Part shown: one piece after another, positions 3,810 through 48,080 of the stretch | Numbering within the stretch: position 1 is the first letter of the stretch | Layout of the letters: the number at the start of each line of letters is the position of its first letter | Assembly (NCBI GenBank): GCA_017427415.1 | Contig: JAFRSU010000062.1 | Coordinates: 1-64,000 of the forward strand | Direction of reading: 5' to 3' | Length of the DNA stretch: 64,000 bases | Source of the DNA: Lachnospiraceae bacterium | Lineage (GTDB): Bacteria > Bacillota > Clostridia > Lachnospirales > Lachnospiraceae | The notes under the pieces: model-generated | Seen by the model: the letters and a program-made list of their open reading frames with translations, nothing else | Database searches by the model: none | What the model was told of the DNA's origin: nothing | Position numbers and translations under genes: made by a program

Positions 3810-3977
3810 ATGTCACGGCAATATACTGAAAAGATCCTGAGACGCCTGAAAAACAAGGGGATTGAGGGTGCCAGATTTGAAATTTACACCTTTTTTACAC
3901 CTTTGGAAACCCGTAAACCTAAAAGGAAAACCATACCGATAGATGAAGCAGGGGATTTAAAAGTCTCCTGCTTTTAA
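3810..3977 (+). CDS. Possible small basic protein (55 aa), unrecognised
   Basis: An ATG at 3810 opens a 55-codon frame just 11 bp after the ATPase gene. The preceding GAGGTG is only 2 nt from the start, which is poor spacing. The product is basic and lysine/arginine-rich in its first 40 residues. The 3' end of the frame runs through the terminator hairpin at 3947-3975. It may be a genuine tiny gene, a truncated remnant, or chance. No family was recognised. Confidence 0.25.
   Translation: MSRQYTEKILRRLKNKGIEGARFEIYTFFTPLETRKPKRKTIPIDEAGDLKVSCF
3947..3975 (+). terminator. Rho-independent-type terminator after the ABC operon
   Basis: AGCAGG (3947-3952) pairs with CCTGCT (3967-3972), extended inward by GA/TC with one mismatch, and is followed by TTTTAATT. 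It closes the peptide-permease-ATPase unit. Confidence 0.6.
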
Positions 3978-4006
3978 TTGTAGCTAAATTGTATTTCGGA
4001 TTTTGA

Positions 4007-4035
4007 TTGACAAATAGAAGATTTCGATGTAGTTT
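4007..4035 (+). promoter_or_regulatory. Probable promoter of the AbiE operon
   Basis: TTGACA (4007-4012), a 17-bp spacer and TAGTTT (4030-4035) lie upstream of the AbiEi gene. The -35 is consensus and the -10 is weak. Confidence 0.45.
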
Positions 4036-4046
4036 TCTAATGAAAA

Positions 4047-4069
4047 TCGGCAAAACAATAAAATGCCGA
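4047..4069. promoter_or_regulatory. Inverted repeat, candidate AbiEi operator
   Basis: TCGGCA (4047-4052) and TGCCGA (4064-4069) form a 6-bp inverted repeat with an 11-bp centre, between the predicted promoter and the AbiEi start. AbiEi-type antitoxins are known to repress their own promoter by binding inverted repeats. The site is therefore a reasonable operator, but it has not been compared with any consensus. Confidence 0.35.
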
Positions 4070-4099
4070 AAAAAGATGACATGATTTGAGGTGATATAG

Positions 4100-4687
4100 A
4101 TGGTGAGTGCAGTAATACTTCCCAGTGACCAGAAAATATTTTCTATGCAAGAGTTAAAGAGCAAAGGTTTCTCACAGTATAAGGTCAGCAAGATGGTCAG
4201 TGAAGGGAAACTTGTAAAACTGAATAAGTGTTTTTATGAGAATACTGCTTATAACAGCGAAGAATCTGTTTTTTACTATACGGAGGATTATGCTCCGAAA
4301 GGGGTGATATGCCTGCTCAGTGCAGCAGTACATTATCAGCTTACGACCTTTATTCCGGATGCTGTGGATGTTGCTATTCAGAGAAAAGCGAGGGTATCAA
4401 CTATGCCGGAATGGCCTAAGATGAATGTTCACTATTATACGGATGACAGATATGAACTAGGTGTCATAACAGTTAAGGAAGGGAAAAATGAATTCCAAAT
4501 TTATGATATGGAAAAAACCGTTGTTGATATTGTGTTTTATAAAGAGAAAATAGGGATTGAAGAAACTAAAGAAATCCTAGTAACATATCTACATAGGAAG
4601 GATCGTAACCTAAACCGTCTTCTGAAATATGCAGAGCTCATGAAATGTGGTAAGATTATGAGACAATATATAGAGGTACTGGTATGA
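4100..4687 (+). CDS. AbiEi-family antitoxin / transcriptional repressor
   Basis: The 195-residue protein begins with a winged-helix segment (about 10-45: MQELKSKGFSQYKVSKMVSE...LVKL...) and continues with the AbiEi body (CLLSAAVHYQLTTF, DMEKTVVDIVFY). Type IV AbiE antitoxins repress their operon through the N-terminal helix-turn-helix and oppose the AbiEii nucleotidyltransferase without binding it directly. GAGGTGAT precedes ATG 4100. The stop overlaps the start of the toxin frame (ATGA at 4684-4687), the usual translational coupling of this pair. The frame looks intact although the partner toxin does not. Confidence 0.8.
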   Translation: MVSAVILPSDQKIFSMQELKSKGFSQYKVSKMVSEGKLVKLNKCFYENTAYNSEESVFYYTEDYAPKGVICLLSAAVHYQLTTFIPDAVDVAIQRKARVSTMPEWPKMNVHYYTDDRYELGVITVKEGKNEFQIYDMEKTVVDIVFYKEKIGIEETKEILVTYLHRKDRNLNRLLKYAELMKCGKIMRQYIEVLV

Positions 4688-5158
4688 TAAGTGCGATATC
4701 GGTAAAGGATAGATTGAAAAACCGGACGGTGGCTAATGGAAAGAAATTTCAGGACATGCTGATGGCGTATGGGCTGGAGAGGACGACTATATACAGACTG
4801 TCGCTGTCAGGATTTAAGGAAAGGTTTACTCTTAAGGGCGGTATTTTTCTTTATACTCTGTTTGAGTTTCTCCAAAGCCACAAGAGATATTGATCTTCTG
4901 GCAAAGAATATGCCAAATAATGCGGAAGATATGAAAAAGGTGTTTGAGAATATATTAACTGTGGAATATGATGATGCACTTAAGTATGATCTGAATTCTT
5001 TAGATGTCAAAGATATTAATGAATTTAAGGAATACCATGGTGTTAATGTTTCAGTAATAGCGTATCTGGATAGGGCTAAGGTTCCGGTATCGATAGATAA
5101 CTTAGAGACAATGGATTACTTATTTTTCTCATATATTATGAAAATTTGGATGGTGTAA
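4684..5158 (+). pseudogene. Frameshifted and truncated AbiEii nucleotidyltransferase toxin
   Basis: The first frame (4684-4893) encodes the start of an AbiEii-like protein ending in RFTLKGGIFLYTLFEF and then stops. The second frame resumes without loss as FSKATRDIDLLAK and runs to 5158. The two join at about 4860-4880, near GAGTTTCTCC. LKGG.LL..LF...RATRDIDLL is the family's nucleotidyltransferase core, so one shifted base splits the catalytic region. The second part follows the family as far as LDRAKVPVSID and then loses the expected C-terminal half, ending within 20 residues. Intact toxins are about 250-300 residues; this total is about 155. The toxin should be inactive unless frameshifting or a sequencing error is involved. 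Confidence 0.8.
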
Positions 5159-5160
5159 AA

Positions 5161-8100
5161 ATGATAAAAACAAATGATTTTCCGAGGGCGAAAACAAAAA
5201 TGAATAGATTAATTCCTATAGTGAATGAATATGATTTCAAAGATGTTTCCAAGGCCATTTACTGTATAGGTGTTTGTGTAAATAATCGTTCGGTTCTTGA
5301 ATCGGAATTATCTTTGAATTGGGCTTTAACAGAACATAACCACAAAGGTAATAAGAAAATAGAAAATTATGAAGATTTTAAAATATTTTTTTCTGCCATT
5401 GAAAACATAATAAAGCCGTCTATATATGATGATGCTGTGGTGGAAGATTATGGAGATGTTTCAGTTGAGATATTTGGTAAAAAATATTCCGTTATTATAG
5501 GAACTGGTCATAACATGGTATTCGCATGTCTTCAGTTTTTACCGATATTAGCATGTGAAGTAAAAAAGAAAGATGAATTAATAGAAGTACTTACATACAA
5601 TTCATTTATTATTGATTATCTTAAAGATGTAAATAGTTCAGATGGCGATCATGGAGCGAGATTGGTTCTGCCAACAGAAAAACTATTTGATAGAGTAGTA
5701 GAGCTGTTTGACAGTCTCAAGATTGAGATGATAAGGAATGTAGCTTCAATAATGAGGTCTGATTATATAGAAAAAAAGCATTTTATTGAGACAGAGAGCG
5801 GAATAATCCCTTTGGCTAACACCTCTCTTTTAATAGATTTATACGATATGTGGTATAGTTCTGTTACTGAAAAAGATAAAGCACAGTTAGTAAATAGAAT
5901 GTTAACAGGTGTAGCATTTGATTTATATAAATTGGAAATGGATGAAACGATTAATTGTCTATGCCCTGTTGGGGTTTTGAATGATAGGGAAAATCCAAAG
6001 CCATTATATCGGTTCCCGTTTGCACTGGTGTCTTCTAAAGGAATTATTTTTGCTGTAAATAAGAGTGACTATCCAAATGCCGAATTACAGGAAGTTATAG
6101 CTGAAATTATTAAATTGAAGAAAAATGATTCTCTATTTTTACTTGAATTATATAGTAGAAAGAGAGCTGGTGAGTGTAGAGGAATTACTGTTTTTAAAGA
6201 TTCTGATATTAAGTTTATGATATATGATTCGTGGGCTAATCCGTCAGAATCTCATATAATGGGTCATACAAAGAATGAAAAATATCATTATTGCACTGCA
6301 TTGGATATTGTTTACTATCTTTTATTTATGAAAGATGCGGATGAATTACATGAGTATTTTGACTTTAAGAAAGAGGAGAATGAAGCACAAATATATGGTC
6401 ATGGTGGTGACGCATCCACTTTTCTTATGTGGAAAGATGCTAATCATGTTTTTGAAAAAGGTGCTATAAAGTATAGCATGATCAATGTTGGGTTTGATAC
6501 TGAAAATGAGTATGTAGTTGACTACTATCGAAAGAATTTAAAGGATTTCCCTTTTGGAGCGGGAGATTATATTTTGAATAACCCATTTTCTTGGAATATT
6601 ACACCTAAAGAGAATGGTTTCTATGAATACATTCAAAAAGGGAAAGCTGGGTTTGGCGGATTGTATCGTTTATTCCGAAATAATTGTTATTTCTTTTTCC
6701 CTCATAATGTAAAATTCTATCCCAATATGAAGGAATACTTAAAATATAAAAACGCAATATTTATGATTGAGGATATTATTCAACGAATGATTATATCAGT
6801 TAAGAACATCATTGAGTCTCGTTCAGAATTAGGAAAATGTTCAGTTCAGGTAATGATGATGCCTGAGGTATATGCTGGAAAATCGGACCCATCAGGTTTG
6901 TTATTGGCGCAAGAACGTAAATATGTTAAAAGTGATTCGATAATATCAAACAGAAAAATCTGTATTCGATTTATTCCTATTGTTGATAAGCTCTTTGAAG
7001 ATATCGCAAAAGCAAAAGATAGAACGGTAGAGGTTGAATTCTTTATGGAATTAATGCAACCTTTAAGGAAGTATTTTCCTCATTTTTATGTGCAATTAGA
7101 GAAGTATATGGAGGGGGTAAAATTAGAGAAAAAGGAAGTATCTGCTATTAGCTTTAATATTGAATATACATGGGAGCAAGAACAGGAATCTATATACAGA
7201 GTAGAAGATAGTGCATACATTGCCGTAAGAAAACATATTGCTGAGATATGTTATAATGCTGGGATTAGTTCTGGGACTTATTATGGTAAGGATGCAACTT
7301 TGGTTGTAAGATCGATTCAAAAAGAACTTATAGAAGACTTTGAAAATGAAGTAAGAAAATACGATTATTTCAAGTTATTTGAACGGAGCCTTGCAGACTA
7401 TGCAACACTTTTACATGAAATTATGATTCATAGGCAGAGATATAATAGTTTCGAAGATATGAAAGAGGAAGTTCGTGACGAAGTATCTCGAAACATAATA
7501 GAACAAAGAGAAAAAGCAAAGCATAACTCTAGAACAGTTTTATATTTGATAGAAACAACATTATATAATAGCGAAAGAGGACAGGCAATTTTAACTGACA
7601 AAAAATATCAGTATTTATTAGCATATGCAAATTGGTTAGTTGTATTAGGGGACAATGCTGATATGTGCTATTTCACAGAAGATGAAGTATATGTGGAAGT
7701 ATCAAGTGAATATATTATTGATGTAGAATCAAAAAGGGAATTTAGTCATCAACTAGGTGTAGAATTAACTAGAAGAATGTATGATAATCCAGGTCTTTTC
7801 GAACGAGATTATCTTGCTGACGAACAGTATTTTGAAAAAGTAAAACAGGCTTTTGAAACAGATACAGGAGTACCATTGGAGGTATTTTTGTCATTAATGT
7901 GTTATCTTGAAACTGGAGGTAAAATTGATGGTGAACTATATCATAGATGTAATTCGTTTTGTTTTTGGAAAGAAGATATAATAGAAGATTATTCTTCTGT
8001 TCAAAATGTCCCACAAGTTTTAACAGAAAAAGCATTAATGTTAATTTGTATAAATGTTACTAGGCTTAAAACTAAAAATAATATTGATGATTTTTACTTA

Positions 8101-8742
8101 CCAATTGGAGAGAAAGAAAAACGTAGTGATAGATATGAAGTAAAGCCTGTTTATGAATATAATGGTATGGTTATATATTCGCCATCGGCTATACATTATT
8201 TGAGAGATTATTGGCAAAACAGTATGTTTGAATTTCATATGCCGTATGAAATAGGAATGCCTGTTACAAAAAAAGTTTTAGTAGAATGGAAAAGGGTGTA
8301 TGAGAAAAAGATTGTTTTTGATCTCGAGAAAGTGTTTAAAAATAATGGATTTGAAGTAAGACCAAATTTTGAATTGATGAATCTTGATAAACAGAAATAC
8401 CCTCAGTATTTAGGAGATTATGACTTGTTTGCAGTTGATTTGCAGAGGAATGAAATATGGATTATAGAGTGTAAATTTATCGAAAAAGTCGAAACATTTT
8501 ATGAGATGTACAGACAGCAGAATAGGTTTTTTAAAGAAGACAAGTACGATGAGAAGTTTCAGCGTAGAATTGACTTCTTGAATGAAAACTATAAAGAGGT
8601 TATGAAGGATTTAAAACTTCCAGTTGCTGAATATAGGATAAAACCATATATGTGTGTAAATAAAGTCTTTGCTTCAAGATATAAGGAAATTGAGTTTCCG
8701 ATATTAAGTTATCAAGAGATGGTTGAGGAAATAGTAAATTAG
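5161..8742 (+). CDS. Very large orphan protein with C-terminal PD-(D/E)XK nuclease-like domain
   Basis: This frame encodes about 1193 residues from ATG 5161 (an in-frame ATG at 5146 adds five). GGATGG (about 5145-5150) is the only ribosome-site candidate and fits 5161. The first ~1040 residues match no family I recognise. They look soluble, mixed alpha/beta, with many aromatic and charged residues and no signal peptide or clear membrane helix. The C-terminal ~140 residues contain FEVRPN, then GDYDLFAVD and EIWIIECK: Asp1086/1088 and Glu1103-X-Lys1105 form a D-x(n)-E-x-K nuclease signature. A+T content is visibly higher than in neighbouring core genes and it follows an AbiE remnant, both typical of defence islands. 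A restriction or anti-phage nuclease is inferred, not shown. Confidence 0.6.
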   Translation: MIKTNDFPRAKTKMNRLIPIVNEYDFKDVSKAIYCIGVCVNNRSVLESELSLNWALTEHNHKGNKKIENYEDFKIFFSAIENIIKPSIYDDAVVEDYGDVSVEIFGKKYSVIIGTGHNMVFACLQFLPILACEVKKKDELIEVLTYNSFIIDYLKDVNSSDGDHGARLVLPTEKLFDRVVELFDSLKIEMIRNVASIMRSDYIEKKHFIETESGIIPLANTSLLIDLYDMWYSSVTEKDKAQLVNRMLTGVAFDLYKLEMDETINCLCPVGVLNDRENPKPLYRFPFALVSSKGIIFAVNKSDYPNAELQEVIAEIIKLKKNDSLFLLELYSRKRAGECRGITVFKDSDIKFMIYDSWANPSESHIMGHTKNEKYHYCTALDIVYYLLFMKDADELHEYFDFKKEENEAQIYGHGGDASTFLMWKDANHVFEKGAIKYSMINVGFDTENEYVVDYYRKNLKDFPFGAGDYILNNPFSWNITPKENGFYEYIQKGKAGFGGLYRLFRNNCYFFFPHNVKFYPNMKEYLKYKNAIFMIEDIIQRMIISVKNIIESRSELGKCSVQVMMMPEVYAGKSDPSGLLLAQERKYVKSDSIISNRKICIRFIPIVDKLFEDIAKAKDRTVEVEFFMELMQPLRKYFPHFYVQLEKYMEGVKLEKKEVSAISFNIEYTWEQEQESIYRVEDSAYIAVRKHIAEICYNAGISSGTYYGKDATLVVRSIQKELIEDFENEVRKYDYFKLFERSLADYATLLHEIMIHRQRYNSFEDMKEEVRDEVSRNIIEQREKAKHNSRTVLYLIETTLYNSERGQAILTDKKYQYLLAYANWLVVLGDNADMCYFTEDEVYVEVSSEYIIDVESKREFSHQLGVELTRRMYDNPGLFERDYLADEQYFEKVKQAFETDTGVPLEVFLSLMCYLETGGKIDGELYHRCNSFCFWKEDIIEDYSSVQNVPQVLTEKALMLICINVTRLKTKNNIDDFYLPIGEKEKRSDRYEVKPVYEYNGMVIYSPSAIHYLRDYWQNSMFEFHMPYEIGMPVTKKVLVEWKRVYEKKIVFDLEKVFKNNGFEVRPNFELMNLDKQKYPQYLGDYDLFAVDLQRNEIWIIECKFIEKVETFYEMYRQQNRFFKEDKYDEKFQRRIDFLNENYKEVMKDLKLPVAEYRIKPYMCVNKVFASRYKEIEFPILSYQEMVEEIVN

Positions 8743-8977: not shown

Positions 8978-9526
8978 ATGATTACTTTTAGAGTTGATGA
9001 CATAATTCCCTGCATAAAGGAAGTAGCAACAGGTGATATCTACGACACTGAAGTTGTAAGGATACGTCGCAAGAGCATATTGTCGAAGTATAATAAGAAC
9101 ACAGGGTGGTATGTGAATTGGAGCAAGTTTCCGGAGGGGACAGAGGTATATGCCCTTGTGCTGAAAGGCACGAATGACATTCAGGGGATGGTGGCAATTC
9201 GGTATGATGATGAGGCAAAGGCAGTCCATGTGCTATGGGGATGCGTGGCTCCACAGAATAATATCTGGCAGTATGGTACAAAGAAATTCTCGGGTGTCGG
9301 GGGCCACTTACTGGCGATAGCATCTGATCTTTCCGTAAAACATGGTTATGAAGGTTATCTATTCGGTGAGGCAATGGACAAGGAACTGTATGATTACTAT
9401 TGTGACGAGTTTGGGGCAGCTTATTTACCGGCAATCAACAATCCATATCGTTTCATGCTTTCGGATGAGGCAACAGCTCATATAAGGGAGGTGTATACAT
9501 ATGAGTGGACAGACGAAATCATATAA
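8978..9526 (+). CDS. GNAT-like acetyltransferase (tentative)
   Basis: The 182-residue protein has the outline of a GNAT fold. A central strand pair (EVYALVLKGTNDIQGMVAIRYDDEAKAVHVLWGCVAP) is followed by KKFSGVGGHLLAIASDLSVKHGYEG, which fits motif A (xxGxGxx and helix). DKELYDYYCDEFGA is in the place of the usual C-terminal Tyr-containing segment. GGCGGAGG precedes ATG 8978. It overlaps a 62-residue downstream gene by 26 bp. GNAT/small-protein pairs can be toxin-antitoxin modules (TacT/AtaT), but those usually place the antitoxin first and use a ribbon-helix-helix partner, so an ordinary acetyltransferase is equally likely. Confidence 0.55.
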   Translation: MITFRVDDIIPCIKEVATGDIYDTEVVRIRRKSILSKYNKNTGWYVNWSKFPEGTEVYALVLKGTNDIQGMVAIRYDDEAKAVHVLWGCVAPQNNIWQYGTKKFSGVGGHLLAIASDLSVKHGYEGYLFGEAMDKELYDYYCDEFGAAYLPAINNPYRFMLSDEATAHIREVYTYEWTDEII

Positions 9527-9689
9527 GGAAAAACTGGCTATTGTGGATGAGTTTATTTCGCGCATCAACCCCTACCAGAAGCCAGAACCGCTTAAGTTCG
9601 ACTTGAGGGGATACGCAAAATACCTGAAGGAACATAATCTTTCTGGTAAGAATGTGGACGAGAATATCGTAAAAATGTTTCAATACTGA
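9501..9689 (+). CDS. Small protein coupled to the GNAT-like gene (62 aa)
   Basis: The product is small, charged and probably helical, ending LSGKNVDENIVKMFQ. A very strong GGGAGGTG site (9486-9493) precedes ATG 9501, which lies 26 bp inside the upstream gene, so the two are translationally coupled. There is no signal peptide, membrane helix or cysteine. No family was recognised with certainty. Partner or antitoxin of the GNAT protein is inferred only from the tight overlap and the high predicted translation. Confidence 0.5.
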   Translation: MSGQTKSYKEKLAIVDEFISRINPYQKPEPLKFDLRGYAKYLKEHNLSGKNVDENIVKMFQY

Positions 9690-45044: not shown

Positions 45045-45060
45045 GGAAAGGATGATGTAT

Positions 45061-45915
45061 ATGAAACGGAAGTTTATCCCTAGGGTTATTATAGTCGTTA
45101 TGCTTTTTTTGTTGGTCATTATAGGAATCCTAGTAATTATCAAATACCATAAGGAAAAACAAGAGGTAGATTTGTCCAATAACGGAATTTTAAATTATTC
45201 TGATAACAGTATAAGCAACGAACACGCTTATGTAGTATCTGATATTGTATGTGGAAATATATATAATAATGATTGTAGAGTATATGTTCGTGAGGGGGGT
45301 AAGTATATTCCCTATTTGGTTATAAAAACAGAGAATTATGGTGAAAATACAGTACTTTTAATGAGAGAAGATGCTTATCCTAAAGAAATGATGTTTAGGG
45401 ATTGTAATGTGTTTGGAGCTGGAGGCTCTTACTATCCGGGTAGTGTTATAGATGAATTTATGGAAAATGAACTTTACAATATGTATTCTGATGGGATGCA
45501 AAGTATAATAAAGAATGTCCCAGTAAAAATACATAGTAAAAAATATATTTCTAAGTTTACTGTGCCTGAGTATGCAGTGTTTGAAACAATTAATCGACAT
45601 GTCTTCGCACTTGCTTTTTCCGAATGTAAAAGCCACGATTTGCTTAAAGAATGTGATATAGAAGGCGCCTTTATACCGGAAGTATTAGAGTTTCCAATAG
45701 AAAAATACGTTTGGCTAAGATCGGATGCATTTGGGGGAGATGATACTTGTGCCGCTCAAATATATAACGGCAAAGTGCAATCTAACAGAGTTTCAATGTA
45801 TCAGGAGCAATATGTTAGACCTGTGTTTGTTGTTTCTGCAGATGAACAGATAAGGAGTGTAAATAGTATCATAAAGGATATGGAAGTTTTTGTTTTCTCA
45901 ATTGATGAAGAGTAA
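45061..45915 (+). CDS. DUF6273-like membrane-anchored extracellular protein
   Basis: The product (about 284 residues from ATG 45061; in-frame ATGs at 45052 and 45055 also follow the GGGAAAGG site) has one N-terminal membrane helix (about 8-30) and an extracellular domain. The spaced motifs SYYPGSVIDEFMENELYNMYS, WLRSDAFGGDD and YVRPVFVVSAD match the DUF6273 family pattern of a late W-L-R-S followed by VRP-hydrophobic strand. The function of that family is unknown to me. Base composition shifts towards A+T here, and the gene is followed by a kinase remnant, so it may be recently acquired. Confidence 0.6.
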   Translation: MKRKFIPRVIIVVMLFLLVIIGILVIIKYHKEKQEVDLSNNGILNYSDNSISNEHAYVVSDIVCGNIYNNDCRVYVREGGKYIPYLVIKTENYGENTVLLMREDAYPKEMMFRDCNVFGAGGSYYPGSVIDEFMENELYNMYSDGMQSIIKNVPVKIHSKKYISKFTVPEYAVFETINRHVFALAFSECKSHDLLKECDIEGAFIPEVLEFPIEKYVWLRSDAFGGDDTCAAQIYNGKVQSNRVSMYQEQYVRPVFVVSADEQIRSVNSIIKDMEVFVFSIDEE

Positions 45916-46001
45916 ATGATAATAAAAAACAACATAATAGTAGCAGGAGTGTCGAGAGCTGGAAAAGTACGGTGTCTCATATGCTGGCTGTAAAAAAATA
46001 G
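45916..46001 (+). pseudogene. Remnant of a P-loop kinase/ATPase gene
   Basis: Immediately after the preceding stop codon, a frame encodes IIVAGVSRAGK and then loses register at GGAAAAGTACGG. In the next frame the reading continues as STVSHMLAVKK and stops at 45999-46001. Restoring one A to the A4 run gives GKST, a perfect Walker A in the VAGVSRAGKSTVS context common to small nucleotide kinases. Only about 33 codons survive, so the gene is a decayed 5' end. Confidence 0.7.
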
Positions 46002-46032
46002 GGCCTTCTTTAGTTCTATTTTTTCACAGCCA
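45985..46032. repeat. Long imperfect palindrome after the kinase remnant
   Basis: TGGCTGTAAAAAAATAG (45985-46001) pairs with CTATTTTTTCACAGCCA (46016-46032) with a single mismatch around a 14-nt loop. There is no T-tract after it on the plus strand. It could be a weak bidirectional terminator or the scar of the deletion that removed the rest of the kinase gene. Confidence 0.5.
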
Positions 46033-46085
46033 CTTTGTTATTTGGCACGCTTATAGTTTGACTATGAATAGTAAAAAGAAAAGAG

Positions 46086-46120
46086 TTGACAAGTTTAATT
46101 ACATATGATACATTGAATGT
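46086..46120 (+). promoter_or_regulatory. blaI-type promoter with overlapping operator dyad
   Basis: TTGACA (46086-46091), a 17-bp spacer and TACATT (46109-46114). The dyad ACATT-G-AATGT (46110-46120) covers the -10 and start region. BlaI/MecI repressors bind TACA/TGTA-type dyads at their own promoters, so autorepression is likely. Confidence 0.55.
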
Positions 46121-46158
46121 GCGGATGGCAACCGACAAACCAAAAGGAAGAAAAGTAT

Positions 46159-46518
46159 ATGAATGATTACAGTTTAGGAGTTATTGAAACAAAGTTTGCA
46201 GAAATAATATGGGACAATGAACCTATCAAGTCAGGAGATTTAGTAAAAATATGTATGGAAAAACTTGGCTGGAAAAAACCAACAACCTACAGTATTTTAA
46301 GAAAACTTTGCTTTCGCGGTTTTTTTGTAAATAATAATGGAATAGTTACATCACTTATATCGAAAGACGAGTTTAGTTCAAGACAGGCAAATGAGATTGT
46401 TCAGAAGTCTTTTGAAGGTTCATTACCTAAATTTATCGCAGCTTTCTCATCTGAAAATAAGTTAACTGCAAAAGATATCGAAGCTATAAAGACTTTGTTA
46501 AAAGAAATGGATAAATAA
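46159..46518 (+). CDS. BlaI/MecI-family transcriptional repressor
   Basis: The 119-residue protein has the BlaI winged helix (about 1-75: ETKFAEIIWDNEPIKSGDLVKICMEKLGWKKPTTYSILRKLCFRG) and a C-terminal dimerisation helix pair. AAGGAAG precedes ATG 46159; an in-frame ATG at 46117 lies in the promoter. It ends 2 bp before the BlaR1-like gene. Repressors of this type are inactivated by proteolysis when the linked membrane sensor perceives its ligand, often a cell-wall antibiotic. No beta-lactamase is adjacent, so the regulated target is probably the operon itself and distant genes. Confidence 0.88.
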   Translation: MNDYSLGVIETKFAEIIWDNEPIKSGDLVKICMEKLGWKKPTTYSILRKLCFRGFFVNNNGIVTSLISKDEFSSRQANEIVQKSFEGSLPKFIAAFSSENKLTAKDIEAIKTLLKEMDK

Positions 46519-46520
46519 AT

Positions 46521-48080
46521 ATGATCAAAGATATTTTTTTATGGATACTTAATTTGAGTGTATTATCGGCCGGTTTTATTATATGTGCTATTTTGATAAG
46601 GTGTCTTTTTAAATATCCAAAATGGATAAGGTATATTCTTTGGGCTGTAGTGGCTATCAGATTAGTGTGCCCTGTGTTTATTATATCAGATATTGAAATA
46701 TCTCCGCTCAATGTTTTTTTGAATGAGACGGATAATGAGCAGAGTGTAACTGCAAAATATTCTACATATTATGATAATAGTGTGGAACAAGACAGTAGAG
46801 AGTCCAATATCGGTTTAAGTGATCAGACAATAGAACTAAATGCAAATAATGGCGAAAATCGTATGTTGGAATATTCGTCTTATATTTGGTTATTTGGAAC
46901 AGTAGCTTTTGTTTGTTACCTGATTATGGAAAACCGACGTACCAGAAACAGAGTCAGAACGGCAGTAAGTCATGATAAAATAAAGAATAATTTGAATATA
47001 GATGCTACTGGGTTCAGCCGGTTCTTTTTTTCGGATGATATCAGTTCTCCTTTTACAATGGGGATTTTAAAGCCGTGTATTTTTCTATCTACTAAAACCA
47101 AAACTGAAGATTTAAAATATATTATAGCACACGAGTTGACGCATATAAAAAGAAAAGATTATATGTGGAAACAGCTCGGATTTCTGATTTTGGCAATACA
47201 TTGGTTTAATCCTTTAGTGTGGGTAGCCTATTATTTATTCTGTAAAGACATTGAACTTGCATGTGATGAAAAGGTTGTTTCGATATGTGGAGAACATGAG
47301 ATAAAGAACTATTTTACCGCTTTACTGAACAACATAGATAAACAAAGTAAATTAACTATTGAAAATGTTACATTTAATGGTTCTTTTATGCGTAAGAGAC
47401 TTGTGGAAATAAAGAATTATAAAAAAGTTTCACTAAAGCCGGTTATTGCATTTATTTTTCTTGTAGTTTTAGCGGGCGCATTGTTCTTTATCAGACCTAA
47501 AAGTATAATAGGTCAGGATAATTATTCTTTGGTTAACGAAGAAGCCAAAACAGAGCTTGAAAAGTTTATTAATCAGTTTACTTATGGATATTTAATAGAT
47601 TCTTTTGATCAGGAAGATTATTTAGATCAAGTATTGTCATATATCATCAGAATGATCATCAGTAATGAGAAAGATGACAGGTTTATATATGATGATGAGA
47701 GTAGATATATCAGTATTCCGAAGAATATATTGAATAGTTATATAGCCAAGTATAAAGATAAGTATTTTGCCGTTCCCGATATAGATAGATATGCCTCAGG
47801 ATTTATGATTGAAGCAGGAAACGATGTGATGATATTACATAATCATCTTAGACAATTGGGAAACAAAGTCTGTATAGATGAAATAGAATATTCAAATGGA
47901 GAATATTTTATTAAAGGACATGGAATCGGAGTTGAAGAAGTAAAAAAGAACAGACAGGATTATACGGCGGGATTGATTGATCTCTCGGAACTTATCATAT
48001 CCGGTAAATTGGTTTTCGAATATGAAGCAGTGGTTGTAAAAAAAGGAGGTGGGTACAGAATTAAAAGCATCCGGTATTAA
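46521..48080 (+). CDS. BlaR1/MecR1-like M56 metallopeptidase sensor
   Basis: The 519-residue protein has membrane helices at about 6-26, 33-53, 111-131 and 310-330. Between the last two lies a cytoplasmic zinc peptidase domain: HELTHIKRKDY (HExxH) and the third ligand region DIELACDEKVV. The C-terminal ~190 residues are outside the cell but lack the S-x-x-K/S-x-N/K-T-G motifs of a penicillin-binding sensor. It should therefore respond to something other than a covalently bound beta-lactam. It lies 2 bp after the BlaI-type gene. Ligand unknown. Confidence 0.88.
   Translation: MIKDIFLWILNLSVLSAGFIICAILIRCLFKYPKWIRYILWAVVAIRLVCPVFIISDIEISPLNVFLNETDNEQSVTAKYSTYYDNSVEQDSRESNIGLSDQTIELNANNGENRMLEYSSYIWLFGTVAFVCYLIMENRRTRNRVRTAVSHDKIKNNLNIDATGFSRFFFSDDISSPFTMGILKPCIFLSTKTKTEDLKYIIAHELTHIKRKDYMWKQLGFLILAIHWFNPLVWVAYYLFCKDIELACDEKVVSICGEHEIKNYFTALLNNIDKQSKLTIENVTFNGSFMRKRLVEIKNYKKVSLKPVIAFIFLVVLAGALFFIRPKSIIGQDNYSLVNEEAKTELEKFINQFTYGYLIDSFDQEDYLDQVLSYIIRMIISNEKDDRFIYDDESRYISIPKNILNSYIAKYKDKYFAVPDIDRYASGFMIEAGNDVMILHNHLRQLGNKVCIDEIEYSNGEYFIKGHGIGVEEVKKNRQDYTAGLIDLSELIISGKLVFEYEAVVVKKGGGYRIKSIRY

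Follow-up and report, generated by a model that had tools for sequence, protein, structure and literature searches.

A divergent relative of the anti-phage protein Upx, with a C-terminal PD-(D/E)XK nuclease domain, beside a broken AbiE locus in a Lachnospiraceae bacterium

Introduction

Upx is among the least understood of the one-protein defence systems, and is said to have been defined by Gao and colleagues in 2020 as an uncharacterised PD-(D/E)XK defence protein. The D...E-x-K signature is the established active-site pattern of the PD-(D/E)XK superfamily. A passage in one publication (PMC10855318) places Upx among nucleic-acid-degrading systems, citing Gao et al. 2020 (Science 369:1077), and passages in two others report it in Pseudomonas genomic-island hotspots (PMC12629846) and in Vibrio integrative elements (PMC12824646). 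Our literature search found no paper describing the mechanism of Upx or the PDB entry 9WUF, whose chain A (1272 aa) is the sole sensible relative in the PDB, by sequence, of the protein described here. Named 'Restriction endonuclease' by its depositors, this chain strongly matches two Upx relatives (L024 and L018) and is classed here as an Upx-family protein on the strength of those matches. We describe a giant protein encoded in a window of 64,000 nucleotides (positions 1 to 64,000 of contig JAFRSU010000062.1, assembly GCA_017427415.1) from a Lachnospiraceae bacterium, and compare it with these systems.

Results

An intact giant gene adjoins a broken AbiE locus

The gene and its upstream neighbours are as follows.
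5161–8742, + strand: Upx-like giant protein gene, intact, 1193 aa (open frame and full-length homologue)
4100–4687, + strand: AbiEi regulator gene, complete, 195 aa (PADLOC AbiEi, E 2.3e-92, positions 5-194 of 194)
4684–5158, + strand: AbiEii remnant, with a frameshift around 4860-4890 and only about half of its length left (PADLOC AbiEii, both frames)
4007–4068, + strand: putative AbiEi promoter/operator, a TTGACA box with a CGGCA...TGCCG inverted repeat (from alignment)

The giant gene starts with ATG and runs through 1193 codons without an internal stop, with a TTG in the same frame at 5146; at its own base composition, the chance of such a frame staying open is ~10^-50. Its G+C content is 31%, compared with ~45% in the surroundings and 46-47% in the nearby metH, which agrees with the original prediction of an A+T-rich protein of about 1190 residues. 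The region next to metH in which the gene lies is variable: four congeners have neither the gene nor its neighbours there and carry mixed genes instead, with no clear defence genes among them. Just downstream, two overlapping small genes (8978-9689; 182 aa and 62 aa) show a toxin-antitoxin-like arrangement and have no Pfam or PHROGs family. A second A+T-rich segment of the window (45052-48080, G+C ~31%) encodes an unidentified membrane-anchored protein (45052-45915), a BlaI/MecI-like regulator (46117-46518) and a membrane protein with the look of a BlaR1/M56-type peptidase (46521-48080).

That a broken AbiE locus adjoins the gene had also been predicted, and the PADLOC profiles bear this out. 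The two AbiEii frames (4684-4893 and 4769-5158) cover about 10-67 and about 59-141 of the 294-position profile, so the locus lacks an intact AbiEi/AbiEii pair, and the giant gene begins 2 bases past the remnant (5158 to 5161). The TTGACA box and inverted repeat upstream of AbiEi are kept in a congener (G016) with a 91% identical AbiEi copy, promoter-like matches in the region being otherwise no commoner than chance, and terminator prediction gave none between AbiEi and 5161. Given this conserved box and repeat and the lack of a predicted terminator, it is possible that the giant gene is transcribed by read-through from an AbiEi-controlled promoter. Window positions 3892-4699, with AbiEi and its upstream region, are 90% identical to DNA of the congener (G016 C181, L125); only the first 15 bases of AbiEii are still similar, and the gene that follows in the congener encodes a ResIII/PLD-like helicase-nuclease. 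Since this congener carries a different gene there, the genes downstream of AbiEi may be swapped repeatedly.

The C-terminal half is homologous to Upx

Four features of the C-terminal half are used below.
6946–8280, + strand: middle region homologous to Upx, ahead of the nuclease domain, residues 596-1040 (hhalign)
8281–8739, + strand: PD-(D/E)XK nuclease domain, residues 1041-1193 (NCBIfam and PADLOC Upx, PDB 9wuf_A)
8413–8424, + strand: G1085-D1086-Y1087-D1088 motif (alignment of relatives)
8467–8475, + strand: E1103-C-K1105 motif (alignment of relatives)

Nothing in the window protein rose above the Pfam cut-offs, and profile searches with Pfam, NCBIfam and PADLOC found no ATPase, helicase or NTPase family, in keeping with the earlier view that no ATPase or helicase was visible; assignment of the N-terminal part to a metabolic family, which would have spoken against the prediction, did not occur. 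The NCBIfam profile 'anti-phage protein Upx' (NF042954) matches residues 1055-1178 (E 4.3e-7), and the PADLOC Upx profile (PDLC02221) matches at the corresponding distance from the C-terminus (E 1.6e-5). The NF042954 score is 27.5 bits against a curated cut-off of 1900 bits, far below the equivalog level, and present Upx profiles barely detect the clade to which the protein belongs. As a positive control, L030, a genuine Upx protein whose contig also carries an integrase, reaches 2415.7 bits with the PADLOC Upx profile.

Profile-profile comparison extends the homology well beyond the nuclease domain. Aligned by hhalign with Upx and intermediate sequences, the window clade matches over residues 596-1175 (553 columns, E 5.3e-23), and with the nuclease domain removed from both sides a match persists (97.2%, E 3.6e-11, score 90.2); the highest score among 60 block shuffles was 21.6, and the reversed control scored 13.5. 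Because the match survives this removal, about 600 residues (~596-1193) are recognisable, instead of only the last ~140 as originally proposed. The intermediates align with Upx at full length (E 7e-77); a single homologue from Bacillota matches Upx end to end with 640 bits. The clade profile also matches 9WUF at the nuclease domain (E 0.0045). Judged by sequence, the window protein represents a divergent clade within the wider Upx family, and we do not file it as Upx since it falls below the equivalog cut-off. An effector half common with Upx is certain; a common sensor half is unproven.

The conserved residues of the nuclease domain fit an active PD-(D/E)XK enzyme. G1085, D1088, E1103 and K1105 are invariant in 12 of 12 aligned relatives, and D1086 is replaced by E in one of the 12. 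These residues belong to the GDYD...IIECK pattern noted earlier, which spans 1085-1088 and 1101-1105, and its numbering of E1103 and K1105 was correct. An AlphaFold model of the C-terminal half from a three-sequence alignment was too poor for use (mean pLDDT 36.9) and gave no meaningful Foldseek match; the assignment of the C-terminal nuclease rests on homology of sequence.

The N-terminal half may carry a nuclease-like segment

Two features are relevant here.
5161–6945, + strand: N-terminal part, residues 1-595, conserved in the clade
5878–6360, + strand: possible restriction-endonuclease-like segment, residues 240-400 (predicted model, Foldseek)

Within clade alignments, the N-terminal part is 33% identical to that of one relative (L031) and ~32% identical to that of another (L098). 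Profile comparison of residues 1-595 with Upx, both global and local, detected no sequence homology: the best local hhalign match is co-linear at E 0.5, and 22 of 60 block shuffles scored equally high. N-terminal homology to Upx was set aside as unproven, its scores lying within the block-shuffle range. A profile search of this part against PDB sequences returned nothing credible, and Pfam recognised no modification-reading domain in the protein. Since residues 1-595 could not be linked to Upx, the trigger and mechanism may differ from those of Upx.

The AlphaFold model of residues 1-600, again from a three-sequence alignment, has a mean pLDDT of 43.5 and one good stretch at about 240-400, mostly at 70-87. 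In Foldseek searches of the PDB, nearly all top ranks were restriction-endonuclease-like nucleases, with none at E <= 0.001; they included McrC, Bax1, Can2/Cdn1, BspD6I, VC1899, AF1548 and XisH. Endonuclease-like and Vsr-like proteins also stood near the top in a viral structure library. The Foldseek results did not give the aligned part, and we assigned the matches to residues 240-400 from the pLDDT profile. No conserved D...E-x-K was seen in this stretch of the clade alignment. Residues ~240-400 may form a second, probably inactive, nuclease-like domain, which we regard as a lead and not a result.

A rare clade, inherited as a single gene

The closest homologue (L002/L004), from an uncultured Lachnospiraceae genome, is full length and 83% identical in amino acids (84% in nucleotides). 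The DNA common to both is confined to the gene itself.
5157–8740, + strand: DNA unit common to the window and L004 (9997-13580), a single blastn segment of 3584 bp at 84.4%

The flanks of the homologue are unrelated to the window. Because only 5157-8740 is common to both, the giant gene moves, and is kept, as one gene. Comparison of the two copies gave dN 0.086 and dS 0.756 (dN/dS ~0.11), and this excess of silent over replacement change indicates that the protein is constrained by purifying selection. Upstream of the homologue, an AlbA_2/RecG-C-like gene (L004 6726-9984) is interrupted by a transposase gene.

More distant members include a full-length SEC-C-bearing protein of 1237 aa (L098, genome G967), a SEC-C-bearing N-terminal fragment on the viral contig IMGVR_UViG_3300028581_003972 (L031), and a relative on the Lactococcus plasmid pFI430 that is without much of the N-terminal part (L005). 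Upx-like proteins also occur on Deinococcus plasmids, in other Bacillota genomes, and in Bosea, Sinorhizobium and Salmonella. In a maximum-likelihood tree of C-terminal halves, the window protein, L004, L098 and L005 group together with 100/100 support on a long separating branch, the C-terminal halves of the clade being ~15% identical to Upx. The clade is rare: of 299 genomes from the bacterial family, 3 gave matches, and in one of these the match was weak and involved a shorter protein. When close relatives were sought with single sequences, genome contigs yielded one homologue, and viral contigs and phages yielded none.

Several candidates were left out. Matches with L031 as query in 325 of 341 genomes reflect only the ~20-residue SEC-C motif and were disregarded, except those in G967 and G000. 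A weak match in G018 (E 9.6e-4, containing a stop) and a 553-aa frame in G649 were also excluded from the clade. The G649 protein (L099 8853-10511; 552 aa) matches no Pfam family and has a similar motif, G-D-I-D...E-I-K, towards its C-terminus; it is possibly a shorter relative. Another genome (G281, L020 111-1487) carries an N-terminal HsdM fragment fused in frame to SEC-C and ~230 Upx-like N-terminal residues, followed by a stop.

Relatives lie near defence genes

Whether homologues recur in defence islands had been suggested as a check; the neighbourhoods of several relatives hold Avs2, TmtA, TIR, GmrSD-like and Hachiman-like genes. On a Deinococcus sp. QL22 plasmid (L025, 3663-11606), Avs2 lies directly upstream of the Upx-like gene, with an AbiEii-family gene further downstream. 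The fragment on the viral contig (L031) adjoins TmtA and an AlbA-TIR protein; L019 has a GmrSD-like PDC-M55C neighbour, L004 has PDC-M69 B and C with a RecG-C-like gene, and L024 has a HamB-like helicase and TIR proteins. In the window locus, the broken AbiE is the sole defence-like neighbour. The relatives' neighbourhoods support a defence role by association. On the viral contig (L031 3876-9389), a TmtA-like ATPase, AlbA-TIR and the SEC-C Upx-like gene follow in succession within a phage tail region; the TmtA frame opens with ~115 residues that resemble a phage tail protein, so that either defence genes have inserted into a tail gene or the assembly is chimeric.

Discussion

We consider it likely that the giant protein belongs to the Upx family in its wider sense, as a divergent member whose N-terminal ~600 residues recognise a trigger and whose C-terminal PD-(D/E)XK domain cuts DNA, most likely as a one-gene anti-phage system. 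The protein would be made before infection; its N-terminal part would sense either a phage product or invading DNA, after which its C-terminal nuclease would degrade DNA. On their own, high A+T content and a neighbouring AbiE remnant would have argued only weakly for defence. The original prediction of a single-protein defence system with a C-terminal nuclease is now well supported by distant Upx homology, conserved catalytic residues, inheritance as one gene under purifying selection and the relatives' neighbourhoods, whereas the defence role itself, a sensed trigger and the choice between selective and host-killing cutting are what we infer.

How the nuclease would be used can be read in more than one way. 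It is possible, if rather unlikely, that the protein acts as a restriction-like (type IV-like) enzyme of modified DNA: the N-terminal part would read a modified base or a DNA structure and the C-terminal domain would make the cut, with plasmids and further mobile DNA as targets no less than phages. The lack of an NTPase and of a partner methyltransferase would suit such an enzyme, as would the depositors' name for 9WUF and the resemblance of the only well-modelled N-terminal segment to restriction-endonuclease folds such as McrC, but none of those fold matches is significant alone and Pfam finds no modification-reading domain. About as tentative is an abortive-infection effector, in which the nuclease would destroy host and phage DNA and cells would die before phage maturation; a large putative sensor fused to a nuclease is consistent with this, and neighbours of the relatives include Avs2 and TIR, systems known to act in this way, although the sequence does not decide between selective and suicidal cleavage. 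Somewhat less probable again, the clade could be a separate single-protein immune nuclease that has only the effector half in common with Upx, with a different N-terminal half built around a catalytically dead restriction-endonuclease-like domain (plus SEC-C in relatives), the gene here now being under AbiEi control.

Readings outside one-gene immunity fare worse. It is improbable that the protein has no part in defence and serves housekeeping or the maintenance of a mobile element: the presence of relatives on plasmids and integrative elements would favour this reading, but the very patchy distribution, the single-gene transfer, the Upx homology and the defence neighbours argue against it. 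We think it still more improbable that the protein is the toxin in a toxin-antitoxin unit of the AbiE kind, regulated by AbiEi, or an operon partner of AbiEi. The start so close behind the AbiEii remnant, the intact AbiEi and the conservation of its upstream region in a congener would fit such a unit, yet the 83% homologue has no adjacent AbiE and the DNA similarity ends exactly at the gene ends.

Compared with known systems, AbiE adjoins the giant gene upstream in the window and is absent beside its closest homologue, and the giant gene itself has no AbiE homology. L098 and L031 belong to the same clade, with ~32-33% N-terminal identity and, for L098, the same overall architecture; they differ in an N-terminal SEC-C zinc motif that neither the window protein nor its 83% identical homologue has, and L098 has ESK where the window protein has ECK. 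The window protein resembles Upx as a single gene product of ~1200-1270 aa without an NTPase, with a C-terminal PD-(D/E)XK nuclease equally far from the end, its catalytic residues kept, and ~600 homologous C-terminal residues. It differs from Upx in that identity across the C-terminal half is only ~15% and its 595 N-terminal residues are not alignable, and the same differences hold for 9WUF. The comparison with Upx shows which half is held in common and which varies: the C-terminal ~600 residues, probably the effector, are common, and the N-terminal ~600, probably the sensor, vary.
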